Source: an uncultured Clostridia bacterium
GTDB taxonomy: Bacteria; Bacillota; Clostridia; Lachnospirales; Bianqueaceae
Direction: 5' to 3'
Assembly (NCBI GenBank): GCA_944376225.1
Contig: CALWBZ010000082.1
Location: 1-61,678, forward strand
DNA: 61,678 bases
Both the position numbers and the translations under genes were made by a program. The notes under the pieces are model-generated. The model was not told the DNA's origin. It saw only the letters and a list, made by a program, of their open reading frames with translations, and did no database searches. Positions 5,993 through 21,713 of this stretch are shown here, piece by piece. The number at the start of each line of letters is the position of its first letter. Position 1 is the first letter of the stretch.

Positions 5993-6214
5993 ATGGCTGT
6001 TAGCTACAAAAAGCTTTGGAAATTGCTGATAGATAAAGACGTGAAGAAGAAAGACCTTGCACAGGGCGCTCATATCAGCACATATATGATTAACAAATTG
6101 AATCGCGGCGATAACGTAAATACAGACACGCTTGTCAGAATCCGCATAGCCCTGGATTGTACTTTCGACGACATCATGGAAATGATTCCAGACGGCAAAC
6201 AGGAGGCGAAATGA
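5993..6214 (+). CDS. Small XRE-family regulator at head of BREX operon
   Basis: A 73-residue protein that is almost entirely one Cro/C1-type helix-turn-helix: KKLWKLLIDKDVKKKDLAQG, then STYMINKLNRGDNVNTDTLV with the recognition helix, then LDCTFDDIMEM. The start at 5993 follows GGAAGGTG; an upstream in-frame ATG at 5954 has no ribosome site. Its stop overlaps the brxA start (ATGATG), so the two are translationally coupled. It probably represses or tunes the operon. Type 1 BREX loci elsewhere often carry a WYL-type regulator (BrxR) instead; this one has no WYL domain. Confidence 0.8.
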   Translation: MAVSYKKLWKLLIDKDVKKKDLAQGAHISTYMINKLNRGDNVNTDTLVRIRIALDCTFDDIMEMIPDGKQEAK

Positions 6215-6840
6215 TGCAGACAAATACCGCAGCTTTGAGAGCTGCCAGCCCATATAATGCCGCGATTACGCGAGAACAGTTTTTGTTTTATGAGATGCGC
6301 ACTACAGCCAGACTGATGAGTGAGGGCCTGGACGATAACGAGGTTGCGGAGCGCATTGTAAAAGATAATTTATTCCAGTACCCGACGGAAAAGTCCATCC
6401 GAAAGATGGCCTTGGCCTGTATCCGGCGTCTGCGTGCGATGCAGGATGATACACTGATTTCCGCTCTGGCCTCTCAGCCTGCGGAAGTATCCAAACAGAT
6501 TTGCCTGTATGCGATGATGAAGCGGTATCGTCTGGTTTGGGACTTCATGGTGACAGTAATTGGTGAGAAGTACCGGCTGCAGGATACTTCTTTTGGGAAG
6601 ATTGATCTGAACACTTTCTTCCTTCGTTTGCAGGAACAGGACGACTGGGTGGCGACATGGAGTGATACGACCATCAAAAAGCTCAAGCAGGTGCTGGCGA
6701 AAATTCTTGTAGAGAATGAGTACCTCGACAGCGTTGCCGCTGATCATCTGAACCTGGTCTGGCTGTATCCGGTTTTGGAAAACGCCATTCGCAGTAACAA
6801 CGACGATGCCGTTTTACCGGCGTTCAACAATTTTTCGTAA
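6214..6840 (+). CDS. brxA: BREX protein BrxA (DUF1819)
   Basis: A 208-residue protein of the BrxA/DUF1819 family, a small DNA-binding member of type 1 BREX. Visible family features are the REQFLFYEMRTTARL opening, the NLFQYPTEKSIRKMALACI block and the LMKRYR-like KQICLYAMMKRYRLVWDFM stretch. AGGAGG at 6201-6206 gives seven bases to the ATG at 6214; the overlapping ATG at 6211 is the alternative. It lies directly before brxB, the standard type 1 order. Its biochemical role in restriction is not settled in the family. Confidence 0.88.
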   Translation: MQTNTAALRAASPYNAAITREQFLFYEMRTTARLMSEGLDDNEVAERIVKDNLFQYPTEKSIRKMALACIRRLRAMQDDTLISALASQPAEVSKQICLYAMMKRYRLVWDFMVTVIGEKYRLQDTSFGKIDLNTFFLRLQEQDDWVATWSDTTIKKLKQVLAKILVENEYLDSVAADHLNLVWLYPVLENAIRSNNDDAVLPAFNNFS

Positions 6841-6852
6841 GGGAGGCGCGGT

Positions 6853-7410
6853 ATGGTAAGTATCAAAGAGCGCTTAGATAAACTGCGCAGCACAATTCAG
6901 GAGCCAGAATTTCTAGAAGGAAATGGTCTGTCCAACGAGGTCAACATCCGCATTTTCTGCTATGACGCGGCGGATGAAATGACTGTGCGGCGATTCCTTG
7001 GACAGATTACGACCGATCAGACGCTTAGCTGTCATCTTATTGAGTGCAACCTGTATCAGATTTTCCTCTCCCTTTGCGATGACCTGGATATTACAGATGA
7101 TATTCCAGAGATGGAGGAAAGTGACGGCAGAGAGTATCTGCTGGAGCAGCTGCATTCCGCTATCGGGGAAAATGAGTTTATAGAGAAAATGCAGTATGGG
7201 CCACACGCATCTGGAGATGTGCTGCTGCTGACGGGCGTTGGCGATGTCTTCCCGTTTATGCGGGTACATACGCTTCTTGAGGCATTGCAGCCGTACTTCT
7301 CGGACATCCCGATTCTGGTGATGTATCCGGGGACTTTCGATGGGAGCTATGTAAGACTTTTTGACAAGCTGCCGCCGAACCCATACTACCGGGCATTTAA
7401 CGAAATTTGA
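6853..7410 (+). CDS. brxB: BREX protein BrxB (DUF1788)
   Basis: A 185-residue protein of the BrxB/DUF1788 family, found in nearly all type 1 BREX loci. Typical text includes SIKERLDKLRSTIQEPEFL at the start, GDVLLLTGVGDVFPFMRVHT in the middle and PILVMYPGTFDGSYVRLF near the end. It begins 12 bases after brxA with GGGAGG upstream, and ends 13 bases before brxC. Its function is unknown, though it is usually required for defence. Confidence 0.9.
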   Translation: MVSIKERLDKLRSTIQEPEFLEGNGLSNEVNIRIFCYDAADEMTVRRFLGQITTDQTLSCHLIECNLYQIFLSLCDDLDITDDIPEMEESDGREYLLEQLHSAIGENEFIEKMQYGPHASGDVLLLTGVGDVFPFMRVHTLLEALQPYFSDIPILVMYPGTFDGSYVRLFDKLPPNPYYRAFNEI

Positions 7411-7423
7411 GGGAGGCTTAAAG

Positions 7424-10400
7424 ATGCGAATTCAAAATATGTTCCAGGAGGACATCAACCGCCCGATTAACGGCGTCATCAAGGTTGATCAGGACGCGCA
7501 GGACGTGATCGAGCAGGAAGTCCGTGAGTATGTAATCACAAAAGAACTGCGAAAGCATTTTACGGCTTTCTTCAACTATTACAGCGAAGCATTTGAAACG
7601 CCAACCGCCGACATCGGCGTCTGGATTTCCGGCTTCTTTGGAAGTGGTAAATCTCACTTCCTGAAAATGCTGTCCTATATTCTGGAGAATAAAAGCGTCG
7701 GCGACACTACTACCGTGGAACTGTTCCGGAAAAAGTTTGACGACGACCCGGCTACTTTCATGCTGATTGATCGGGCGGCAAAGGTTCCGACGGAGACGAT
7801 TCTGTTCAATATCGACATCGAAAGCTCCATCAACAAGGATAAGACTGCCGTTATGCGTGTCTTTGCGAAGATGTTCTACAACCATCTCGGTTTCTATGGC
7901 GAAAATCTGAAGGTTGCCATGCTGGAGTATTACATCGAACAGAGTGGCAAGACGGAAGAATTCCGCCGTGTCTTCGAGGAGAAAAAGGGCAAGCCCTGGG
8001 TGGAAATGCGCCGCGCATTTGCCTTCAATGGAAAGTTCATCATCCCGACACTGATGGAAGTGCTGGATATGAGCGAGGAAGACGCAAAGAAATGGTTCAA
8101 TGATAAGACTGCCACCGAGCTTTCCATCGCCCAGCTGGTGCAGGATATCAAAGAGTATGTAGACAGGCAGCCGAAGGATTTCCGCCTACTCTTTATGATC
8201 GACGAGGTTGGCCAGTATGTCGGCACAGATACCGATATGCTTCTGAACCTCCAGTCCCTCACAGAGAAAATTGGCAGCGAGTGCCAGGGCAAGGTGTGGG
8301 TGGTCTGCACCGGTCAGGAGGCTATTGACGAGATTATCAAAGTCCGTGCGGACGAGTTCTCCCGGATTCAGGCACGGTTTAAGACGAGACTCTCTCTGTC
8401 CTCTTCTTCCGTGGATGAAGTCATCCAGAAGCGTATCCTGAAGAAAAAGCCGGAGGCCGGACAGGAATTGGAGCGTGTTTACAATCAGAACGACTCCGTG
8501 CTCCGCAACCTTTTTACCTTCAACGGGGCACAGCTGGACATCAAGGGCTTCGGCGGCCCGAACGAGTTTGCGGTCAACTTCCCGTTCGTGCCATACCAGT
8601 TCATTATCATGCAGAAGGTGTTTGCCGAGATTCGCAAGCATGGCAACTCTGGCAAGCATTTGTCCGGCGGCGAGCGCTCCATGCTGTCTGGGTTTCAGGA
8701 GGCCGCACAGAAGGTGCAGGATAAGGACGAGTTTGCACTTGTGCCATTCTTCCGCTTTTATGATACCGTACATACCTTCCTGGACGGTTCCATCCGCCGC
8801 GTGATCGAGCGCTGCTCCCGTGCGGCTGATGCCGGGGACGGCATCGAAGCCTATGATGTGGATGTATTGAAGCTGCTCTACCTGATTCGCTATATTGACA
8901 ACGACGTTCCGGCCAATCTGGATAATATTGTTGTCCTCATGGCGGATGACATTCGTGTGGATAAGATCAGCCTGCGTGAGGTTGTCCGGGAGTCTCTGAA
9001 CCGGCTTCTTTCCCAGAACTATATCGGCAGAACCGGCGATACCTACAACTTCCTGACCGACGAGGAGCAGGATATTCAGCGTGCCATCCGCAACGAGACC
9101 AGCGTGGATACCTCCGCGATTGTGGAGCGCATCGCGCAGATGATCTATGCGGACATTTATACGACCAAGAAGTTCCGCTATGGGAAGTACGACTTTGACT
9201 TTGACAAGATGGTGGACGGCGTGACCAGCGGTGCGCTGACCGGCGGAATGCGGCTGAAATTCCTGACGGTGGCGACGGACGCCGTGGAGAAATCCAAGCT
9301 CCGCCTGATGACCGAGTCGAAAGATCAGGCCATCGCCGTACTGGCGGACACCGACTATTACAACTCGCTGGAGCAGGCCATGAAAATCCGCAAGTACGTA
9401 AAGCAGCGGAACGTGGCGCAGCTGCCCCGGTCTGTGCAGGATATTATCCGAGACCAGCAGGACGAAGCAACCCGTCTGGAAAACTCTGCTGCGGAGGAAC
9501 TGCGCAAGGCTATCGCTGGTGCGGAGTTCTATGTGGCCGGAGAGCATATAGAGATCAAGGCCGGCGACGCAAAAGTGAAAATTGACCAGGCGCTGGAATA
9601 TCTGGTTATCCATGTGTACAGCGAGCTTGACCTGATTACGAAGAATGCTGAGACAGACGCGGATATTCTGGAAATCCTGACCGGCGGCGAGAACATGCTT
9701 GCCGGAACGGAGCCTAACCAGGATGCTGCCGCAAAGATGGAGGAATATCTGGACATTCAGCACCGGAAGAACCTCCCCACCTCTATGGCGGATGTGCAGA
9801 GCCGGTATCAGGCGATTCCCTACGGCTGGCGGGAAATTGACATTGCCGCTGTAGCTGCACGCCTGATCCGAGACCAGAAAGTGACAATCAAATACGCAGG
9901 AACCACCATTCAGCCCAGCAATCCGAAGTTGCCGGATATGCTCCGCAAAAAGAGTGAGATTGGAAAAACCAACATCTCCAAGCGTCAGGTGGTCTCTGTC
10001 GCCAAGATGAAGGAGGCCAGAGAATTCCTGAGGGAGTATCTGGACGTGATGGACGTACCCGACGACGAAGACGGACTGATCGCGTTCATTATCAAGAATT
10101 TCACAGAGCAGAAGGAGCATTATGAGCAGCTTCTTGCCCGGTATGATGGTCATAAATACCCGGATAAGGGCTTAGTCGCACAGGCGGTTCAGCTGATGGG
10201 CGACGTGCTGTCTCAGTCCAAGGATAATATTGCGCTCATTGACCGGCTGGTCAAAAAAGAAGACGATTTGGATGACAATAAGGAAAAGATGCAGCGTGTC
10301 GAAGGGTTCTTCAAGACGCAGGTGACAGTATTCGACGCTGCGGTGCAGCTGGAAGCTGACCTGCGGCATGAGCTGGACTACCTGAGCCATGAGCCAGAAG

Positions 10401-10975
10401 CTAATTCCGCCCTGAATCAGATTCGGCTGATTTGCGTGGCACAGGCCGGAAATCAGTTCAATTACAAGCGTATTCCGGAGCTGAACGGTCTGATGAACAT
10501 TGTTCACGAGGGACACGACCGCCTGCTTGCAGCAAAGCGCGAGGAACTTCTGGAGATTGTGCGCCAGTGCATGGAGGCCATTCATACAGCGGCCAGCAGC
10601 TGCAGAGACGACCAGGCCAGAAGCATTCAGGCGAAGGCTGACACTTTCTATACGCAAAAGAAGCAGCAGATCGCTGAACTGAAAAGCCTTGCCCTGCTGG
10701 ACGGCCTCCTGCCGCAGATGCTGCAGCAAAAGGATGAAGCAACAGACCGTCTCGAAATGCTGAGCAGGCCGCCTGTTGTGACGCCGAAGCCTCCGGTCAA
10801 TCCGCCGAAGGATATGCCGCCTGTGCAGAAGAAAATTTATAAGTCCCTGAACCGCTCCATTGTCTTCCCGGCGAAGCGCTTGGAGAGCGAATCGGACATT
10901 GACGCTTATGTAGAGAAAATGCGCGAAAGCCTGAAACAACTGCTGAAGAATTGTGACGGGATACAGTTAAAGTGA
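7424..10975 (+). CDS. brxC: BREX ATPase BrxC (PglY family)
   Basis: An 1183-residue P-loop ATPase, full length for BrxC. Walker A is GFFGSGKSHF (about residues 68-77) and Walker B is LLFMIDEVGQYV (about 255-266). The long C-terminal half has charged, coiled-coil-like stretches (EDDLDDNKEKMQRVEGFFK). BrxC is an essential BREX ATPase thought to work with PglX, PglZ and BrxB in both modification and phage exclusion. The start at ATG 7424 follows GGGAGG; the frame extends 21 codons upstream into brxB without a site. A 655-codon open frame on the opposite strand is a composition shadow. Confidence 0.93.
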   Translation: MRIQNMFQEDINRPINGVIKVDQDAQDVIEQEVREYVITKELRKHFTAFFNYYSEAFETPTADIGVWISGFFGSGKSHFLKMLSYILENKSVGDTTTVELFRKKFDDDPATFMLIDRAAKVPTETILFNIDIESSINKDKTAVMRVFAKMFYNHLGFYGENLKVAMLEYYIEQSGKTEEFRRVFEEKKGKPWVEMRRAFAFNGKFIIPTLMEVLDMSEEDAKKWFNDKTATELSIAQLVQDIKEYVDRQPKDFRLLFMIDEVGQYVGTDTDMLLNLQSLTEKIGSECQGKVWVVCTGQEAIDEIIKVRADEFSRIQARFKTRLSLSSSSVDEVIQKRILKKKPEAGQELERVYNQNDSVLRNLFTFNGAQLDIKGFGGPNEFAVNFPFVPYQFIIMQKVFAEIRKHGNSGKHLSGGERSMLSGFQEAAQKVQDKDEFALVPFFRFYDTVHTFLDGSIRRVIERCSRAADAGDGIEAYDVDVLKLLYLIRYIDNDVPANLDNIVVLMADDIRVDKISLREVVRESLNRLLSQNYIGRTGDTYNFLTDEEQDIQRAIRNETSVDTSAIVERIAQMIYADIYTTKKFRYGKYDFDFDKMVDGVTSGALTGGMRLKFLTVATDAVEKSKLRLMTESKDQAIAVLADTDYYNSLEQAMKIRKYVKQRNVAQLPRSVQDIIRDQQDEATRLENSAAEELRKAIAGAEFYVAGEHIEIKAGDAKVKIDQALEYLVIHVYSELDLITKNAETDADILEILTGGENMLAGTEPNQDAAAKMEEYLDIQHRKNLPTSMADVQSRYQAIPYGWREIDIAAVAARLIRDQKVTIKYAGTTIQPSNPKLPDMLRKKSEIGKTNISKRQVVSVAKMKEAREFLREYLDVMDVPDDEDGLIAFIIKNFTEQKEHYEQLLARYDGHKYPDKGLVAQAVQLMGDVLSQSKDNIALIDRLVKKEDDLDDNKEKMQRVEGFFKTQVTVFDAAVQLEADLRHELDYLSHEPEANSALNQIRLICVAQAGNQFNYKRIPELNGLMNIVHEGHDRLLAAKREELLEIVRQCMEAIHTAASSCRDDQARSIQAKADTFYTQKKQQIAELKSLALLDGLLPQMLQQKDEATDRLEMLSRPPVVTPKPPVNPPKDMPPVQKKIYKSLNRSIVFPAKRLESESDIDAYVEKMRESLKQLLKNCDGIQLK

Positions 10976-10985
10976 GGTGAATTAG

Positions 10986-11738
10986 ATGCAATATTTATAT
11001 TACGATTTAGGCCAACTTGAAGCCGGTAAAATAGTTGAAGTAACATTAACAAAAGCAGCAAATGTCCGTCTAATGGATTCATCTAACTATAACAATTATA
11101 AGGCTGGAAAGCGTCATCGCTTTTATGGTGGCTATGTTAAGCAAAGCCCATATAGAATACCAGTGCCGCATTTTGGCCACTGGTATGTAACGATAGACCT
11201 TGGCGGATACGCAGGAAGCTTACGTCATGGAGTTAGGGTCTTACCTGGTATGCTTCCAACAGCGCCTACCAGAATGCCTCTTGCCAAAGAACCAAATTTG
11301 TATGTTGATACGAGTGATGAAGGCAAGGAGTTTGATGTTTTCATCTCTCATGCGTTTGAGGATAAAGATGCCGTTGTCCGTCCGCTTGCAAATGCACTGA
11401 AAAGTAAAGGCTTATCTGTTTGGTATGATGAATTTGAGTTAAAGCTTGGTGACAGTCTCCGCAGAAAAATTGATCAAGGGTTAGCCAAGAGTAGATTTGG
11501 TATCGTCGTCATATCACGCTCTTTTATAAAAAAAGGATGGACGAATTATGAATTAGACGGGCTCATGACAAAAGCTATATCAGGCCAACAAACGCTTCTT
11601 CCTATTTGGCATGACATTACAAAGCAGGAAGTGATAGATTACAGTCCTTCCTTGGCCGATAAAGTTGCACGGAACACAAGCCAGGAAACAGTCGAGGAGA
11701 TTGCCGATGAAATAGCAGAAATGATTATCGGCGCATAA
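10986..11738 (+). CDS. DUF1883-TIR domain protein inside the BREX operon
   Basis: A 250-residue protein with two domains. Residues 1-85 match DUF1883 (YYDLGQLEAGKIVEVTL, SNYNNYKAGKRHRFYGG, HWYVTIDLGGYAG). Residues 115-250 form a TIR domain (FDVFISHAFEDKD, GLSVWYDEFELKLGDSLRRK). E189 in WTNYEL occupies the place of the catalytic glutamate of NAD-cleaving TIRs. No signal or membrane segment is seen. It sits 10 bases after brxC and 18 before pglX, with its own GTGAGGTGA site. Its DNA is clearly AT-richer than brxC and pglX, pointing to separate origin. I infer an NAD-consuming or signalling arm that could respond to phage that breaches BREX; this is untested, and TIR may act only as a protein-binding domain. 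Confidence 0.88.
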   Translation: MQYLYYDLGQLEAGKIVEVTLTKAANVRLMDSSNYNNYKAGKRHRFYGGYVKQSPYRIPVPHFGHWYVTIDLGGYAGSLRHGVRVLPGMLPTAPTRMPLAKEPNLYVDTSDEGKEFDVFISHAFEDKDAVVRPLANALKSKGLSVWYDEFELKLGDSLRRKIDQGLAKSRFGIVVISRSFIKKGWTNYELDGLMTKAISGQQTLLPIWHDITKQEVIDYSPSLADKVARNTSQETVEEIADEIAEMIIGA

Positions 11739-11756
11739 GTGAATGGAGCACAAAGT

Positions 11757-14700
11757 ATGGATAAGAATGCTATCAAAAAATACGCTGTCTGGGCGCGGAG
11801 GGAGTTGATTGCCCGCGTGACTCAGAGAGCGCTGCTATATGGAATCACGGAAAAGGAAATCGTTCCGGCAGATGCGACCAGCGTGAACGGGAATCTTCTG
11901 TCTGCCGCCGAGGTAAACCAGCGGAAGACGCTGATTGCCCGGATTCAAAAAAACGGCTTTGAGCAGGTCATGGAGGAAGTCGCCTATACATGGTTCAACC
12001 GCTTTTCTGCCCTGCGGTTTATGGAGGTCAACGGCTATCTGCCCTCTCACGTCCGGGTTTTCACAGATGACACTGGTGCATTCAAGCCGCAGATTCTGAC
12101 CGAGGCCATAAATCTGGAGCTGGACGGACTGGATATGGAGAAAGTCTATGCCCTGAAGGATGCTAATGACGAGGAAACGTTGTTCAAGTACCTCATCATT
12201 GTGCAGTGCAACGCCCTGAGTGCCATTCTGCCTGGGATGTTCCAGAAAATCGACGACTATACCGAGCTGCTGTTCCCGGACAATCTGCTTCGGGTAGGCA
12301 GCGCCATCGAGCAGATAGTCGCACAGATTGCTGAGGAGGACTGGCAGGATCAGGTGCAGATCATCGGCTGGCTGTATCAGTATTACAACACTGAGCCGAA
12401 GGACAAGGTATTTGCCGACCTGAAGAAGAACATTAAGATCAGTAAGGAGAACATCCCTGCTGCTACCCAGCTGTTTACCCCGGACTGGATCGTCCGATAC
12501 ATGGTGGAGAACTCTCTTGGCCGCCTGTGGGCGGAGGGACACCCGAATGAGGAACTGAAAGCAAGCTGGAAATATTATCTGGAGGAAGCCGAGCAGGAAC
12601 CGGAGGTGGAAACGCGGTTGGCAGAAATCCGGAAGGAATATGCTGCCCTGACGCCGGAGCAGATCAAGTGCATCGACCCCTGTTCCGGCAGCGGTCATAT
12701 CTGCGCCTATTTATTTGACGTGCTGGTGCAGATATATGAGGCTTACGGCTATACTGCTCGTGAAGCGGTATCCAGCATTGTGCAGAACAACCTCTACGGC
12801 TTGGACATTGACGAGCGTGCGGCGCAGCTGGCCTATTTTTCCGTGATGATGAAGGCGCGGCAGTATGACCGGCGCTTTTTTAGCCGCGGCATTCAGCCCC
12901 ATATCTATGCCATTCAGGAAAGCAACAGCATCGGGCAAGACCTGATCGACTACTTTGTGGACGGCGACGCCGCCCGGAAAAAGGCTATGGATACCATCGT
13001 GGACGAGCTGCACGATGCCAAGGAGTATGGTTCTATCCTGACCGTGACACCACAGGACTGGTCTGCCCTTTATGTCCGGTTTGACGAGATTGCTAATGAC
13101 ATCAACATCTATCGGGAGCCTGTGCTGAATCAGCTTCTGCCACTGGTGCAGTGCGCTGAGGCAATGGCACAGAAATATCAGGTCGTGACCACGAATCCGC
13201 CCTATATGAGCTCTTCTGGAATGGGTGCGAAGCTGTCAGAGTATGTGAAGAAGAACTATCCAGACAGCAAATCCGACCTTTTTGCCGTCTTTATCGAATG
13301 TTGTGGTGAAATGACGGCAAAAAACGGCTATCAGGCCATGATTACCCAACACTCTTGGATGTTTCTATCCAGCTTTGAAAAGCTGCGCACGAAGTTATTT
13401 CAGAAAGATACTGTCAATATGGTGCATTTGGGTGCAAGAGCTTTTGAGGAAATCGGTGGAGAGGTGGTTCAGACCACCAGCTTTGTGTTGCGCAAAAGCC
13501 ATGTTTCAGATTACAAGGGAACCTACTGCCGTCTGATTGAACCGACCACCCAACAGGGCAAGGAAGATATGTTCCTTGCAGGTGAAAATCGTTATACTGC
13601 CCAGCAGGACAACTTCCCCAAAATTCCGGGCAGCCCGGTAGCGTATTGGGTTTCCTCAAGATTTTGCAGAATTTTTGATTCACCGCTTTTCTATGAATAT
13701 TCCGTTTCGGATGGCCAAAATAAGACAGGAAATAACGCGAAGTTTGTTAGAGCATTCTGGGAAATCTCTAATGAAACTATAGGTATTGGAAAGAAATGGA
13801 TTTTTTATGCAAAAGGAGGTGGCGCGCGGAAGTGGAGTGGCAATCTAACTGAAGTCGTAAATTGGTCTGATGAAGCAAGAGCGTTTTATCGGAAAGACAG
13901 AATTTGCCGAATAATTCCCGAATATTTATGGTATAAAATTGGTATTACGTGGAGTTTAATTTCAAATAATCCAAGCTTTCGAGTGCTACCGAAAGATGCC
14001 ACGTTCGACGTAGGTGGTTCATCTGTTTTCCTAAAAGAAGATAAAGATCTGTACTATTATCTGGGATTATTGAATAGCAAAATCTTTTCCGCCGTTCAGA
14101 AAATTACAAATCCCACTATAAACATACAGGTTAAAGACATTCGCATTATGCCAATAAAGTGGGATTGCAAGGGACATGTTATGTTTATTGTCGGGGAATC
14201 TGTTCAAATAAGTAAAGATGACTGGGACGCTTTTGAAACCTCATGGGGGTTCAAGTGGCATCCGTTAGTCATGTATGCGCTCAAGAGTAGAGAACGTACA
14301 AACGGTGGCTGTTGGCACGGGCGTGTGAAGGATGCTTTTTGCTGGTGGAGCAACGAGTGTGACACCCGTTTCGCCCAACTCAAAGCCAATGAGGAAGAGC
14401 TAAATCGCATTTTCATCGACATCTACGGCTTGCAGGATGAGCTGACGCCGGAGGTCGAGGACAAGGACGTGACTGTCCGCAAGGCGGATTTGCAGCGGGA
14501 CATCAAGAGCCTGATTTCCTATGCCGTGGGCTGTATGTTTGGCCGCTACTCTCTGGATGTGGACGGGCTGGCCTATGCCGGCGGCGAGTGGGATGCTGAG
14601 AAATACAAGACCTTCCCGGCAGACAAGGATAATATTTTGCCTATCTGCGATGACGAGTATTTTACGGACGACATTGTAAGTCGCTTCGTGGATTTTATCC

Positions 14701-15200
14701 GCACCGTGTACGGCGAGGATACTCTGGAGGAGAATCTGCGCTTTATTGCCGATGCGCTCGGCGGCAAGGGACAGCCCCGTGACGTTATCAGGGACTATTT
14801 CCTGAACGGCTTCTATGCTGACCACCTGAAAATCTACCAGAAGCGCCCAATTTACTGGCTATTCGACAGCGGAAAAAAGAACGGCTTCAAGTGCCTGATC
14901 TATATGCATCGCTATCAGCCGGACACGATTGCCCGCATCCGCACGGACTATGTGCATGAGCAGCAGAGCCGCTATCGTACTTCTATCGCCGATTTGGAGC
15001 AGCGCATTGCGAACGCTTCTACCAGTGAGCGTGTGAAGCTGAATAAGCAGCTAACCAAGCTCCAGGCGCAGGCTGACGAGCTTTACAACTACGAGGAAAA
15101 GATTCACCATCTGGCCGATCAATATATCTCCATTGATCTGGACGATGGCGTGAAAGTGAACTATGCAAAATTTCAGGATGTGCTGGCGAAGATTAAGTGA
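11757..15200 (+). CDS. pglX: BREX adenine-specific DNA methyltransferase PglX
   Basis: An 1147-residue N6-adenine methyltransferase that marks host DNA so that BREX does not attack it. The SAM-binding motif is IDPCSGSGHI (about residue 305) and the catalytic motif NPPY (about residue 479, in TTNPPYMSS). The segment from about 640 to 840 should hold the target recognition domain and is AT-richer than its flanks. A helical C-terminus (RYRTSIADLEQRIANAS) ends VNYAKFQDVLAKIK. I chose ATG 11757, eight bases after GGAG; the GTG at 11739 in the same frame lacks a site. The target sequence cannot be read from the protein. Confidence 0.93.
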   Translation: MDKNAIKKYAVWARRELIARVTQRALLYGITEKEIVPADATSVNGNLLSAAEVNQRKTLIARIQKNGFEQVMEEVAYTWFNRFSALRFMEVNGYLPSHVRVFTDDTGAFKPQILTEAINLELDGLDMEKVYALKDANDEETLFKYLIIVQCNALSAILPGMFQKIDDYTELLFPDNLLRVGSAIEQIVAQIAEEDWQDQVQIIGWLYQYYNTEPKDKVFADLKKNIKISKENIPAATQLFTPDWIVRYMVENSLGRLWAEGHPNEELKASWKYYLEEAEQEPEVETRLAEIRKEYAALTPEQIKCIDPCSGSGHICAYLFDVLVQIYEAYGYTAREAVSSIVQNNLYGLDIDERAAQLAYFSVMMKARQYDRRFFSRGIQPHIYAIQESNSIGQDLIDYFVDGDAARKKAMDTIVDELHDAKEYGSILTVTPQDWSALYVRFDEIANDINIYREPVLNQLLPLVQCAEAMAQKYQVVTTNPPYMSSSGMGAKLSEYVKKNYPDSKSDLFAVFIECCGEMTAKNGYQAMITQHSWMFLSSFEKLRTKLFQKDTVNMVHLGARAFEEIGGEVVQTTSFVLRKSHVSDYKGTYCRLIEPTTQQGKEDMFLAGENRYTAQQDNFPKIPGSPVAYWVSSRFCRIFDSPLFYEYSVSDGQNKTGNNAKFVRAFWEISNETIGIGKKWIFYAKGGGARKWSGNLTEVVNWSDEARAFYRKDRICRIIPEYLWYKIGITWSLISNNPSFRVLPKDATFDVGGSSVFLKEDKDLYYYLGLLNSKIFSAVQKITNPTINIQVKDIRIMPIKWDCKGHVMFIVGESVQISKDDWDAFETSWGFKWHPLVMYALKSRERTNGGCWHGRVKDAFCWWSNECDTRFAQLKANEEELNRIFIDIYGLQDELTPEVEDKDVTVRKADLQRDIKSLISYAVGCMFGRYSLDVDGLAYAGGEWDAEKYKTFPADKDNILPICDDEYFTDDIVSRFVDFIRTVYGEDTLEENLRFIADALGGKGQPRDVIRDYFLNGFYADHLKIYQKRPIYWLFDSGKKNGFKCLIYMHRYQPDTIARIRTDYVHEQQSRYRTSIADLEQRIANASTSERVKLNKQLTKLQAQADELYNYEEKIHHLADQYISIDLDDGVKVNYAKFQDVLAKIK

Positions 15201-15213
15201 GGTGATTAGTGGT

Positions 15214-16824
15214 ATGCCATATTTAGAAACTGTTCAAGAACTTCTGGAAGCCAAAGAAGGCGAACATGTCCAATTCAAGGAAGCTAAAAATCGGTTTGAC
15301 TTTACTGAGGTGGCGAAATGCTGCTGTGCTTTGGTGAACAATGGCGGTGGCAAGCTGGTATTCGGCATTACAGATAAAAGACCTCGCAGTGTGGTAGGAA
15401 GCGCGGCGTTTGACCAGCCAGAGCGTACTCGCATGGGCTTGATTGAGAAATTGCGGATCAACATTGATTTCCAGCTTTTCAATTATGAAAGAAAGCGGGT
15501 TCTGGTCTTCAACGTAAAGAGCCGTCCAATCGGTTTGCCGGTACAATACGATGGCGTAGCGTGGATCTACGAAGGCGACACGCTCAAGCCTATGCCGGAA
15601 GATATGCGCCGCAGCATCTATGAAGAGACAGGCGGCGATTTCTCCGGGACAATTTGTGCTGGGGCAATGGTTGATGACCTGGATGAGACTGCCATTGAAG
15701 CCTTCCGCGCTAAGTGGATTGAAAAAAGCGGCAAAAAGCAGCTTTCCACACTTTCAAAGGAGCAACTCCTCCACGATTGCGGTGCAATCACAGATGACGG
15801 CGTGACATATGCCGCCCTGATCCTATTCGGAAAGAACGCAGCAATCATCAAGTATTTGCCGCAGGCGGAAATTATTTTTGAATACCGTTCTTCCGAAGCA
15901 TCGGGTCCTGCCAACCAGAGAGAAGAATTTAAGGTCGGATTCTTTGCCTGCTATGACCGCGTATGGGAACTTGTCAATTTGAGGAACGACAAGCAGCATT
16001 ATCAGGAAGGATTTTTTGTGTTTGACATTGCGACCTTCAACGAACGTGTTGTCCGCGAAGCAATCCTGAATGCGGTGAGCCACAGAAACTACCAGTTCGG
16101 CGGCAGCATCTTCGTCCGCCAGTTCCGCGACAGATTGGTTGTTGAAAGCCCAGGTGGACTTCCCTTCGGCATTACGCTTGACAATATACTGGATCGCCAG
16201 CTCCCACGCAATCGCCGCGTTGCAGAAATCCTTTCGCTGTGCGGCATGGTGGAACGCTCCGGGCAGGGCATGAACCTGATGTTTGAACTGAGTGTACAGG
16301 AGGCAAAGCCGCTTCCAGACTTCACAGGAACCGATGACTTCTTTGTCATCGTCACGCTGAATGGACTGATTATCGACAAAGCGATGCTTTCTGTTATCAA
16401 CCGAATCAGCGAAAAAGGTGCGGAGCTGCTGTCTACCGAAGACTTTTTGGTAATCGATGCGCTGTACCATGAAAGGCCGCTGAACGAAAAGATGCAATCC
16501 CGTCTGAACCGGCTGATCGAGATGGGCATTGTTGAACATATTGGTCGCAAAAAGTATGTTCTCGCAAGAAGCCTCTATGCGGCAACAGGCAAAACTGGTG
16601 TGCATACAAGACAGGTTGGCCTGGATCGAGATACCAATAAGGAGCTTCTGTTAAAACACATCCGTCGGAACAACGAAGTTGGTACTCCTTTCAAAGAATT
16701 ACAGCAAGTTTTGCCTGGACTTAATCGTGGGCAGATTCAAGTGCTGATGAGGGAACTTAAAGAAGACGGGAAAGTGCTTTGCAAAGGCAAAACAAGCGCT
16801 GCAAGATGGTTCATTGCCAAGTAA
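15214..16824 (+). CDS. AlbA_2 (Schlafen-like) / ATPase-type protein between pglX and pglZ
   Basis: 536 residues. Residues 10-120 form an AlbA_2 (Slfn) domain (EGEHVQFKEAK, NNGGGKLVFGI). The middle carries a GHKL/HATPase_c_4-like region (NERVVREAILNAVSHRNY, RLVVESPGGLPFGIT, MVERSGQGMNLMF). The end has winged-helix-like segments (LSTEDFLVIDALYHE; LNRGQIQVLMRELKEDGKV). Such proteins are usually nucleic-acid binding, some with ATPase or nuclease-linked roles. The start at ATG 15214 follows AGGTGA; the frame overlaps the end of pglX. It is not a BREX core gene, and a fragment of a second pglX 3' end lies just after it, so it seems to have arrived as an insertion. Its role in BREX is unknown. Confidence 0.85.
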   Translation: MPYLETVQELLEAKEGEHVQFKEAKNRFDFTEVAKCCCALVNNGGGKLVFGITDKRPRSVVGSAAFDQPERTRMGLIEKLRINIDFQLFNYERKRVLVFNVKSRPIGLPVQYDGVAWIYEGDTLKPMPEDMRRSIYEETGGDFSGTICAGAMVDDLDETAIEAFRAKWIEKSGKKQLSTLSKEQLLHDCGAITDDGVTYAALILFGKNAAIIKYLPQAEIIFEYRSSEASGPANQREEFKVGFFACYDRVWELVNLRNDKQHYQEGFFVFDIATFNERVVREAILNAVSHRNYQFGGSIFVRQFRDRLVVESPGGLPFGITLDNILDRQLPRNRRVAEILSLCGMVERSGQGMNLMFELSVQEAKPLPDFTGTDDFFVIVTLNGLIIDKAMLSVINRISEKGAELLSTEDFLVIDALYHERPLNEKMQSRLNRLIEMGIVEHIGRKKYVLARSLYAATGKTGVHTRQVGLDRDTNKELLLKHIRRNNEVGTPFKELQQVLPGLNRGQIQVLMRELKEDGKVLCKGKTSAARWFIAK

Positions 16825-16851
16825 TCCAACGGCGAGTTAGAATGCGTTTTT

Positions 16852-16917
16852 GCGACCAACTTGCAACCAACTTGCGACTAACTTAAAACTAACTTACGAC
16901 CAGCTTGCAACCTGTTC
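16852..16917 (+). repeat. Tandem 11-bp repeats upstream of pglZ
   Basis: Five units of 11 bases with consensus GCGACCAACTT (16852, 16863, 16874, 16885, 16896), then a partial sixth unit (GCAACC...) at 16907. The spacing is about one DNA turn. It may be a decayed coding repeat tail of the AlbA_2 gene or a protein-binding array. Confidence 0.8.
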
Positions 16918-16918
16918 G

Positions 16919-16961
16919 ACTGTTGACTATGCGAAGTTTCAAGATGTGTTAACAAGGATTG
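16919..16961 (+). pseudogene. Remnant of a second pglX 3' end
   Basis: The reading VDYAKFQDVLTRI closely matches the true pglX C-terminus VNYAKFQDVLAKIK, but the codons differ at many third positions. It is therefore a diverged allele, not a recent copy. It lies immediately upstream of pglZ, where pglX normally ends. Confidence 0.7.
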
Positions 16962-16986
16962 TCGACTCACTGTGTCGACAATCTTG
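16954..16986 (+). other. Strong hairpin in the pglZ leader
   Basis: ATTGTCGAC (16958-16966), seven-base loop, GTCGACAAT (16974-16982), extended by CAAG/CTTG with one bulged G. No T-run follows, so it is not a standard terminator. It could modulate RNA stability between the pglX and pglZ halves, or be an operator. Confidence 0.6.
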
Positions 16987-17024
16987 CTGGATTTGAAGAG
17001 ACAGAGGAAAGAGAGGAATCACAG

Positions 17025-19637
17025 ATGGCCGGAATCGATTCAGAAAAAATCATACAGGACTTAAACCGGCGGTTCGCTGCGCCTCTTCCGGAGTTTTACA
17101 AGCGCAGGATCATCTTCTGGTATGATGAAGACCGGGAATTTGAAGACAAGATCAGCGATATTGCGCTAAACGACGCAAAAATCCTGATCCTGACCGGAAC
17201 GAATACCTTTGCGGCGAAGAAGCTCCTTGCGGTGGACGATACAGCCAGCAACTATCTGGTCTATAGCCCGCTGACCTATGAAAAGCCGGAGGACAACTGG
17301 CTGCTGAATATAGAGATGTACAGCGAGGAGTTCCGTGCTGACCTGAATTCTATTTGGATGGACGAGATGGGGCTGCCGAATAACCCGACCGTGCGCCGCA
17401 TGGTGAAGGGCTATCGGAAATTCTTCAACAGCATGGAGCGTCGTAAGAGCGTTTCTGCGTTGGCGAAGAACATCAGCACGGCGTCACAGCTTCATCTGGC
17501 AGTGATGGCGTCTACCTGCGGCGAGCAGGAGTTAGAGCCTGCCGGTATCATCCGGGCGGTGCTGTGCAATTCCCTTGACCTGGAAACAAATAGCTTCTAT
17601 CAGGATTTCGTGAAGTACGGCGCACAGAATGCTTTCTGGGTCATGGTTTCACAAGCTACCGGCTACAATGAGGGTGACGATGTTGACCTTGGCAGGCTGG
17701 CAAGCCATATTCTGCTGACTGCGGCGACACGAACGCTGCGTCCAGAATATCTTGCCGGCCTGGACAGCTATCTTTCTACGCCCCACGCCAGTTTCTGCTA
17801 CGACCTGGTAGCCGACTGGCTTCAGTCCGGCAAGAAGAACGAGCTGTATCATGTCGCCCGGTTTGCGGAGCAGGAAGCAAGGTTGCCCTACCGCTTCATG
17901 AAACTGACCGTGGAGGATTTGTCTGGCACGGAGATTTTCCCGTGCATCAACGAGTGCATCCTGACGATCCTCATGAAAGAGATCAGCGATTATATCATCA
18001 ACGTGGATGCCATTACGAAAGTGGTCGAGAAACGTCGTGCGCTGGCGTGGTATGATGAGGTTTCCTGCTACTATGAAGGGCTTTTGCAGGTCGCCAATAT
18101 GCAAAGTTTCTTCCAGTCTCACGCCGCCGGTTTCCATCTGGCGAAAGCCCGTGAGGTCTGGAACGCCTATACCAGCGATTACTATAAGATGGACAGCTAT
18201 TACCGACAGTTCCATCTGTGCTTCCAGTGCAGTCTGAGCATCGGAAACGAAGTGCTGGACGATCTGTTCAAGCATGTGGTCGATAAGGTTGAAGGACTAT
18301 ATAGCAGCTGGTTCCTGACCGGCCTGAACAGCAACTGGTCGGACGTTTGCGCGGAGGAACTGGCGGAATATGGCCGGGTGCTGGAAGTAGACCAGCAGGA
18401 GGCGTTCTATCGCCGGAAGGTGGCAAATGCCGACACAAAGGTCTACGTCATTATCTCTGATGCTCTGCGTTATGAGGTGGCCGCTTCTCTTGCGGACCAG
18501 CTTCGGCAGGAGACACAGAGTAAGGTCAGCCTGAACAGCATGGAGGCCATTTTCCCAACCATCACGAAGTTCGGCATGGCTGCACTGCTCCCGCACAAAG
18601 AGCTGGAGGCGGTGCAGAAGCAAAACGATGGGCCGGTGATGGTGCTTGCCGATGGCTTCTCCACGGAAAGCAATAACCGGGATAAAGTCCTGAAAAATGC
18701 GCATGGTGCCAGCGTGGCTCTACAATATAAGAACATCATCGGTATGAAGCGCACAGAGCGGCAGGCGCTGGTCAAGGGCATGGATGTGGTCTACATCTAC
18801 CACGACAAGGTGGACGAGGCCAGCCATACGTCGGACAGCATGGTTTTCCCTGCCTGCGAGGATGCAATTACCGAGATTAAGAACATTGTCCGCATTATAT
18901 GCAATGAATTTGGCGGTACGAGGATTTACATCACTGCGGATCATGGCTTCCTGTATACATACAGTCCGCTGACTGAAGATGACAAGGTGGATAGGGCCGG
19001 TTTCGTCAACCGGGTGCTGGAATATGGCAGGCGCTTCGCCCTGATGCAGAAAAACTCCAATCCGGACTACCTCATTCCTGTCAAGTTCCTGGACGGGCGC
19101 AGTGATATGGACGCCTATGCCCCGCGGGAGAATGTCCGCATAAAGATGAATGGCAGCGGCTTGAATTTTGTTCACGGCGGTATCAGCCTGCAGGAAATGG
19201 TTGTGCCGGTGATTGAATATCAGTTCCTGCGCAATCAGAGCAAGCTCTATCAACGAAACCGGGAAAAATTCGATACCAAACCGGTGGAGGTGAGTCTGCT
19301 TTCTGCCGGGCGGAAGATCACGAATATGATTTTCTCCCTGAATTTCTACCAGAAAGAAGCGGTCGGGGCAAACCGCTCGGCCTGCAATTATCAGGTTTAC
19401 TTCACGGATTCCGAAGGTAAGCAGATCAGTGACATTGCCCGGATTATCGCAGACAAGACCAGCGACAACGGACAAGATCGCACGTTCAGGTGCAGCTTTA
19501 ACCTAAAGAGCCAGAAATACAGCAATCAGGATTCCTACTACCTGGTGATCGCAGACGAGTCCGGGCTTCAGGTTCCGGTGCGTGAGGAATTCCAGATCGA
19601 CATTGCATTTGCTCTGGATGAGTTTAATTTCTTCTAA
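17025..19637 (+). CDS. pglZ: BREX protein PglZ (alkaline-phosphatase superfamily)
   Basis: 870 residues, full length. The phosphatase-fold core has VYVIISDALRYEVA (metal ligand D479), FPTITKFGMAALLPH, VYIYHDKVDEASH and ITADHGF (D639, H640). PglZ is essential in all BREX types; the family is thought to be a metal-dependent phosphodiesterase or nuclease-like enzyme that interacts with BrxB and PglX. The start at ATG 17025 follows GAGAGGA. An upstream in-frame TTG at 16959 lies in the hairpin and is unlikely. It ends 12 bases before brxL. Confidence 0.93.
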   Translation: MAGIDSEKIIQDLNRRFAAPLPEFYKRRIIFWYDEDREFEDKISDIALNDAKILILTGTNTFAAKKLLAVDDTASNYLVYSPLTYEKPEDNWLLNIEMYSEEFRADLNSIWMDEMGLPNNPTVRRMVKGYRKFFNSMERRKSVSALAKNISTASQLHLAVMASTCGEQELEPAGIIRAVLCNSLDLETNSFYQDFVKYGAQNAFWVMVSQATGYNEGDDVDLGRLASHILLTAATRTLRPEYLAGLDSYLSTPHASFCYDLVADWLQSGKKNELYHVARFAEQEARLPYRFMKLTVEDLSGTEIFPCINECILTILMKEISDYIINVDAITKVVEKRRALAWYDEVSCYYEGLLQVANMQSFFQSHAAGFHLAKAREVWNAYTSDYYKMDSYYRQFHLCFQCSLSIGNEVLDDLFKHVVDKVEGLYSSWFLTGLNSNWSDVCAEELAEYGRVLEVDQQEAFYRRKVANADTKVYVIISDALRYEVAASLADQLRQETQSKVSLNSMEAIFPTITKFGMAALLPHKELEAVQKQNDGPVMVLADGFSTESNNRDKVLKNAHGASVALQYKNIIGMKRTERQALVKGMDVVYIYHDKVDEASHTSDSMVFPACEDAITEIKNIVRIICNEFGGTRIYITADHGFLYTYSPLTEDDKVDRAGFVNRVLEYGRRFALMQKNSNPDYLIPVKFLDGRSDMDAYAPRENVRIKMNGSGLNFVHGGISLQEMVVPVIEYQFLRNQSKLYQRNREKFDTKPVEVSLLSAGRKITNMIFSLNFYQKEAVGANRSACNYQVYFTDSEGKQISDIARIIADKTSDNGQDRTFRCSFNLKSQKYSNQDSYYLVIADESGLQVPVREEFQIDIAFALDEFNFF

Positions 19638-19649
19638 GGAGGTGCCCGT

Positions 19650-21713
19650 ATGGAGGAGCATGGGGCGGCCGTAACAAGCCGTGAAATCATTAAGGATAAG
19701 CTCCGCCAGTGTTTTGACGGAAAAATTGTCCGCAAAGACCTGACAAAGAAAATCAAAGAAGGGGCCAATGTCCCTGTTTATGTTCTGGAGTTCCTGCTGG
19801 GGCAATATTGCAGTTCGGATGACGAGGAAATCATCGAGCGAGGCGTGCAGAATGTAAAGCGGATTCTGGCGGATAACTTTGTGCGCCCCGATGAGGCACA
19901 GAAAATCCTCTCCGTCCTGCGCAAGAACGGCAGCCATACGGTTATCGACATGATCACGGTGCATCTGGACATCAAAAAGAACCGGTTCTTTGCGGAGTTC
20001 TCGAACCTTGGTTTGCGGGATGTGCCCATTGAAGATGAATATCCGGAGAAATATGACCGCCTGCTCTGCGGCGGCATCTGGTGCATTGTGCAGCTGAGTT
20101 ATGAATATAACGAGGAAGACAAGAAGAACGGCTACCCGATTCAGATTCGGAAGCTGACGCCGATTCAGATGCCCCACGTTGATATTGACGAGCTGAAAAA
20201 TGGCCGGAAGGCATTTACCAAAGAAGAATGGATGGACGTAATGCTCCGTTCCATCGGCATGGAGTCGGATGAATTGACTTACCGTGAAAAATGGCTGCTT
20301 ATCACCCGCATGATTCCGCTTGTAGAGAACAATTTTAACCTCTGTGAGCTGGGACCGCGCAGCACCGGCAAGAGTCACCTTTACAAAGAGATTTCCCCAA
20401 ACAGCATCCTTGTGTCTGGCGGACAGACGACGGTTGCAAACCTGTTTTATAACATGGGACGTAAGACGGTTGGTCTTGTTGGTCTGTGGGACTGTGTTGC
20501 CTTCGACGAAGTGGCCGGCATCCGCTTCAAGGATAAAGACGGCGTACAGATTATGAAGGACTACATGGCTTCCGGTTCCTTTGCCCGCGGCAAAGAGGAA
20601 AAGACGGCTTCTGCTTCGATGGTCTTCGTCGGCAACATCAATCAGAGTGTGGACGTGCTGCTGAAGACGTCCAGTCTGTTTGACCCGTTCCCGCCCGAAA
20701 TGGGCATCGACACAGCATTCCTTGACCGTATGCACTGCTATCTCCCCGGCTGGGAGGTGCCGAAGTTCCGCCCGGAACATTTTACAGATGACTACGGCTT
20801 TATCACGGACTATCTAGCGGAATTTATCCGGGAACTGCGCAAAGAACAGTATGGCGATGCAATCGACCACTATTTCCGTCTGGGCAAGAACTTGAATCAA
20901 CGCGACACGATTGCGGTGCGTCGCATGGTAGACGGCTACCTAAAACTTATCTATCCGGACGGTGAGTTTACAAAAGAAGAACTGGAAGAAGTGCTGCAGC
21001 TATCTCTGGAGATGCGCCGCCGTGTGAAGGAACAGCTCAAAAAGCTGGGCGGCATGGAGTTCTATGACGTGAACTTCTCCTACATCGATAACGAAACCTT
21101 TGAGGAACACTATGTTTCCGTTCCGGAACAGGGCGGCGGCAAGCTGATTCCGGAAGGTATGTGCAATCCGGGACAGGTTTACACTGTATCCCGCGGCAAG
21201 TCCGGTATGATCGGCGTGTTCCGTCTGGAAAGCCAGATGCTGCCCGGAAACGGCAAATTCGAGCGCACAGGCATTGGTTCTGACCGGGACTGCCGGGAGG
21301 CAACCAACACGGCCTTCAACTTCCTGAAGGCGAACGCGAACCGGATCAGCGGTTCCATCAGCACTACGATGAAGGATTACATCATCAATTATCAGGATTT
21401 GCAGGGCATCGGGATGACAGGCAAGCTGGCGCTGCCGTCATTGATTGCGTTATGTTCGATTGCACTTGCAAGACCGACGCAGAGTTCCCTCGTAGTTCTT
21501 GGCGAAATCAGCATCAGTGGTACGCTTATGAAGGTGGACAACCTTGCAGATACCCTCCAGGTATGTCTGGACAGCGGGGCGAAGAAAGTGCTGCTTCCGA
21601 TGACTTCTGCCGTAGATTTGGGAACCGTACCGGCGGAGTTGGTGAGCAGCTTCAATCTGATCTTTTACAGCAGTGCGGAGGATGCAGTGTTTAAGGCATT
21701 GGGAGTAGAGTAA
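19650..21713 (+). CDS. brxL: BREX Lon-like ATPase BrxL
   Basis: A 687-residue AAA+ protein with a C-terminal Lon-like fold; this gene marks the locus as type 1 BREX. Walker A is GPRSTGKS (235-242) and Walker B is VAFDEVAG (about 284-291). The C-terminal part (LVVLGEISISGTLMKVDNL) keeps the Lon S16 shape. I do not see a clear catalytic Ser-Lys pair, in keeping with BrxL acting as a DNA-binding ring ATPase, not a protease. AAGGAGGTG precedes the ATG. It is needed for phage exclusion but often not for methylation. Confidence 0.93.
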   Translation: MEEHGAAVTSREIIKDKLRQCFDGKIVRKDLTKKIKEGANVPVYVLEFLLGQYCSSDDEEIIERGVQNVKRILADNFVRPDEAQKILSVLRKNGSHTVIDMITVHLDIKKNRFFAEFSNLGLRDVPIEDEYPEKYDRLLCGGIWCIVQLSYEYNEEDKKNGYPIQIRKLTPIQMPHVDIDELKNGRKAFTKEEWMDVMLRSIGMESDELTYREKWLLITRMIPLVENNFNLCELGPRSTGKSHLYKEISPNSILVSGGQTTVANLFYNMGRKTVGLVGLWDCVAFDEVAGIRFKDKDGVQIMKDYMASGSFARGKEEKTASASMVFVGNINQSVDVLLKTSSLFDPFPPEMGIDTAFLDRMHCYLPGWEVPKFRPEHFTDDYGFITDYLAEFIRELRKEQYGDAIDHYFRLGKNLNQRDTIAVRRMVDGYLKLIYPDGEFTKEELEEVLQLSLEMRRRVKEQLKKLGGMEFYDVNFSYIDNETFEEHYVSVPEQGGGKLIPEGMCNPGQVYTVSRGKSGMIGVFRLESQMLPGNGKFERTGIGSDRDCREATNTAFNFLKANANRISGSISTTMKDYIINYQDLQGIGMTGKLALPSLIALCSIALARPTQSSLVVLGEISISGTLMKVDNLADTLQVCLDSGAKKVLLPMTSAVDLGTVPAELVSSFNLIFYSSAEDAVFKALGVE

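Follow-up and report, generated by a model that had tools for sequence, protein, structure and literature searches.

In Type I BREX systems, the junction between pglX and pglZ is a place where accessory genes can come and go: comparison of Salmonella LT2 with E. coli HS reveals an indel of such genes at this position (PMC9009780). Schlafen accessory genes are known companions of BREX, and one survey counts at least 1017 taxa in which they are linked to BREX core loci (PMC12839542). A third precedent comes from the T6SS clusters of V. cholerae and from Rhs loci, where effector 3' ends have been displaced and immunity genes orphaned. For the T6SS effector loci, one-sided homologous recombination has been proposed to displace the old gene 3' ends (PMC5361080).

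How does the locus described here compare? As in the Salmonella/E. coli case, accessory genes are present or absent exactly at the pglX-pglZ junction. There, however, the indel is an ATPase and DUF4435 pair, whereas here it is an AlbA_2 gene with what is probably an old pglX tail behind it (PMC9009780). The AlbA_2 protein resembles the BREX-linked Schlafen proteins in its predicted Schlafen domain and minimal histidine-kinase-type ATPase; any RNase or abortive activity of this protein is putative. The accessible text of the survey does not treat insertion scars, whereas this AlbA_2 gene has one behind it (PMC12839542). The likeness to the T6SS and Rhs loci would be that a new module replaces a gene, held by homology at one edge and joined illegitimately at the other, with the old 3' end pushed downstream. 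Those loci, though, show repeated events and retained immunity genes, while here a single short, probably useless fragment sits in a defence operon (PMC5361080). A literature search on pglX inversion returned no papers.

The window, meaning the whole 61,678-nucleotide stretch from an uncultured Clostridia bacterium that was analysed, contains a Type I BREX operon with the core order brxA, brxB, brxC, pglX, pglZ, brxL; all features discussed below lie on the plus strand. brxA (6157 to 6840; PADLOC BrxA, 1.5e-67) and brxB (6853 to 7410; PADLOC BrxB, 2.4e-74) are followed by brxC (7361 to 10975; PADLOC BrxC, E = 0, match from residue 22), whose open reading frame begins at TTG and whose real start is probably a little downstream. 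Next to the resident pglX allele (11739 to 15200; PADLOC PglX, E = 0), which ends in VNYAKFQDVLAKIK and a stop, lies the cargo gene, encoding Schlafen AlbA_2 and HATPase_c_4 domains (15223 to 16824; PF04326, 4e-11, and PF13749, 2e-15). With SLFN_AlbA_2 and HATPase-type domains above the cut-off in the pglX-pglZ interval, it classes as a BREX-linked Schlafen accessory gene, and locus L072 carries a 75% homologue of its protein at the equivalent position. pglZ (17025 to 19637; PADLOC PglZ, 8e-270), with its nearest relative in L068 (81%), and brxL (19650 to 21713; PADLOC BrxL, E = 0) complete the operon. The brxC-pglX interval is a second cargo point. It holds a separate DUF1883-TIR gene (10986 to 11738; Pfam DUF1883, 7e-35, and TIR_2, 6e-21), whose protein finds no match at E 1e-4 among the related loci, and gaps at this position also occur in L033, L149, and L069.

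Just upstream of pglZ lies a second pglX ending. This scar, VDYAKFQDVLTRI (16922 to 16960), was recognized by motif, profile, and repeat comparisons and comprises 13 codons of a pglX 3' end, 64 bp from pglZ. It has no pglX stop codon, the likeness to pglX ending at ATT (16960). Together with the resident tail it forms a direct repeat spaced by 1766 bp, in which 29 of 39 bases are identical. A degenerate pattern for the tail occurs at exactly two sites in the window, the scar and the resident tail, and at none in 100 dinucleotide shuffles. Scored with a profile built on the pglX ends of relatives, the scar reaches 22.4 bits; the maximum over 20 mononucleotide shuffles of all 77 pglX-pglZ gaps (93 kb) is 14.2 bits, and the best other real gap reaches 10.0. 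The first-pass annotation had reported a diverged pglX ending between 16825 and 17024, and both its presence and its standing above chance are confirmed. The scar is so far unique among the 77 gaps. No further copies were found in its own genome (where a 200-bp DNA query matched only itself), in 398 genomes of the phylum, or in the related loci retrieved, and a plasmid collection gave only distant matches to pglX and pglZ.

What does this junction look like elsewhere? Among 68 related loci in which both pglX and pglZ are readable, the two genes are 6 to 20 bp apart in 15, including the nearest relative, L068, whose empty junction has a gap of 12 bp. The proposal that the ancestral operon ran from pglX directly into pglZ is therefore well supported. 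The other 53 loci carry cargo belonging to 32 families, the largest being SLFN_AlbA_2 with HATPase (17 loci); YhcG/DUF1016 nucleases, AAA ATPases, TIR, SIR2, DUF3990, and unknown proteins are also represented. With 15 empty and 53 loaded examples, this junction is a site for cargo; in the window it appears to have taken up a single insertion whose right edge is untidy. In several loci the insert lies between copies of the stop/ribosome-binding sequence seen at the empty site, as in L154 (5670 to 6000; TAAGGAGGTGGC) and L082 (6739 to 8000; TAAGGAG and AGAAGGAG). Most inserts other than that of the window have clean, scar-free ends at or near that sequence, and L072, which has the closest BREX-embedded AlbA_2 gene, is likewise without a scar. 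DNA alignment for tail-like remnants in the other gaps gave nothing convincing; a stretch in L103 comes near in score (17, the window having 19), but it sits 118 bp before pglZ.

The explanation that we favor, and consider probable though well short of certain, is that the scar is the last 13 codons of an old pglX, stranded when the AlbA_2 gene was inserted at the pglX-pglZ junction. The starting state would have been a former pglX running directly into pglZ, and the incoming fragment would have carried a pglX 3' end and, behind it, AlbA_2, a Schlafen-type accessory defence gene. The two edges would then have been joined differently. (i) On the left, homologous recombination in or near the resident pglX would have rebuilt a complete pglX end. 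(ii) On the right, illegitimate joining, requiring no homology, would have fallen inside the final 13 codons of the former pglX, leaving its tail ahead of pglZ. We infer that this was a single event, as we do the homologous nature of the left side and its extent. The state of this locus before the insertion was found in no genome; a pglX tail of the old allele would carry GTTGACTATGCGAAGTTTCAAGATGTGTTAACAAGGATT, or something near it, in a pglX-pglZ locus that has no AlbA_2 gene.

How much of pglX was replaced? The first-pass annotation suggested that a different pglX had taken over most of the old one. That a second allele was involved is likely from the divergence of the scar (p about 0.007, discussed below), but the proposed extent does not stand. 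The window pairs with L068 both in the tree of PglX residues 1 to 450 and in the PglZ tree, giving the operon and the 5' part of pglX a common history; any replaced portion is accordingly at most the 3' part. Residues 851 to 1153 group neither with L068 nor with the AlbA_2 carriers L072 and L096, neither grouping being rejected (p-AU 0.36 to 0.43). At the DNA level, the 3' part of pglX is 74 to 76% identical to the four nearest loci, much like pglZ (73 to 76%), and thus does not look foreign.

A more far-reaching alternative is that the 3' part of a foreign pglX, target-recognition region (TRD) included, was imported in one piece with AlbA_2, changing BREX specificity and leaving the old last codons behind. 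Residues 1 to 300 of PglX are indeed closest to L068 while residues 451 to 850 are unlike it (58% and 35%), residues 451 to 600 are as close to the AlbA_2 carrier L072 as to any locus (79%), and L062 also shows a pglX end, albeit a broken one, followed by AlbA_2. However, residues 601 to 850 are only 41% identical to L072, and the 451-to-850 region is hypervariable in nearly all pairs, including the cargo-less L078 and L086 (PglZ 96% identical, TRD 27%). We regard joint import as unlikely, and the broader comparison of loci also leaves the first-pass suggestion of a pglX and AlbA_2 specificity cassette unsupported. Tested across loci, cargo and TRD are not coinherited but vary largely independently. 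Cargo that is 95 to 98% identical sits beside TRDs that are 36 to 55% identical in most pairs, the exception being L088/L095, which are alike throughout. Conversely, two of the three pairs with TRD identity of at least 75% have no cargo in common, and both L080/L083 and L122/L125 combine TRDs that are 82% identical with different cargo. The PglZ of L082 is 95 to 96% identical to those of L078 and L086; L082 carries an AlbA_2-domain gene absent from both, and its pglX end is intact. The AlbA_2 homologues in L058 to L061 and L063 to L065 have no BREX gene within the stretch read. Given the uncoupling of cargo and TRD, L082, and these homologues outside BREX, pglX and AlbA_2 do not form a fixed cassette. 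Pairs that share cargo do have slightly higher TRD identity (a residual of +5.5 points, permutation p 0.008, with phylogeny crudely corrected), a weak association that may be explained by shared ancestry.

Two side observations concern these same loci. In L122 and L125, PglX residues 601 to 850 are 82% alike while PglZ is only 67% alike, and the recognition region appears, from these identities, to have moved alone. In L062 (900 to 1900), the pglX gene has a deleted middle, and the AlbA_2 gene that follows, 68 to 70% like that of the window, is itself shortened.

Could the scar instead be a copy of the resident tail, duplicated in place (for example, at insertion) and then decayed neutrally? 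The resident tail does tie as its best match (29 of 39 bases, equaled by L130 and followed by L084 and L068 with 28 each), and scar and tail alike fall in the VxYAKFQ class; the expectation that pglX ends from AlbA_2-less loci would fit better accordingly failed. The pattern of change, on the other hand, makes such a duplication rather improbable. Scar and resident tail are unlike at 10 of 39 bases, yet seven of these ten differences are synonymous, just 3 of 13 residues are changed, and there is no stop codon. Simulated neutral decay of the resident tail yields such a pattern in 0.7% of draws (p about 0.007), and the same simulation from three other candidate ancestors does so in 0.1 to 0.6%. 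The scar therefore most likely derives from a pglX allele other than the resident one, even though no pglX end matches it better. Its three changed residues are near-invariant among 68 pglX ends (N in 66, A in 64, and K in 65), and the whole is consistent with an allele diverging while still functional and drifting once cut off. At only 39 bp, the scar is too short for placement in a tree or for naming the donor lineage.

The surroundings of the scar bear on whether it does anything. Past the AlbA_2 stop lie 11-bp direct repeats (16850 to 16915; repeat family D1), five to six units with the consensus TTGCRACYAAC. Similar repeats are found 3' of the AlbA_2 homologues in L072, L096, L061, and L064, and they are perhaps candidate binding sites for the gene's own product. 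At the other side, a hairpin with a 12-bp stem and a 7-nt loop (AGGATTGTCGAC-TCACTGT-GTCGACAATCTT, 16955 to 16985) overlaps the end of the scar, and a 48-codon frame spans the scar. The scar might thus be imagined as a regulatory site, a small peptide, or a recombination site for cargo exchange, yet we give this very little credence. The scar has no counterpart in any other gap, nor has the hairpin in the other loci searched, and folding of the region is not stronger than in shuffles (z -0.45). Against the recombination-site reading, 35 bp at 77% identity would make a short and divergent substrate for homologous recombination. Between scar and pglZ, the 64 bp, hairpin included, match no relative examined and lack the usual pglX stop and ribosome-binding sequence. 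Most likely, the scar has no function. Chance resemblance, to which only the shortness of the scar lends anything, can be set aside given its score, the shuffle results, and its correct strand and place.

Has the same thing happened more than once? L096 carries a decayed AlbA_2 gene of the window's family and its repeats, and then AAAATTAAGTAG, 25 nt before pglZ. Found by motif only, this is possibly a shorter pglX-end remnant of perhaps 12 to 17 bp; since the expected number of such motifs is about 0.23 in the 53 gaps together and, by scaling, about 0.01 in the two loci that carry this AlbA_2, it is suggestive only. It is a long shot that the AlbA_2 family enters BREX repeatedly by way of a pglX anchor, leaving tail remnants of variable length, 39 bp here and perhaps 12 to 17 bp in L096. 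If it does, accessory defence genes would be landing repeatedly at the conserved pglX 3' end.

Overall, the scar is most likely the fossil of an ordinary process, a physical trace of the entry of an accessory gene into a phage-defence operon. Across the clostridial BREX loci compared, the cargo at the junction changes largely independently of PglX specificity.
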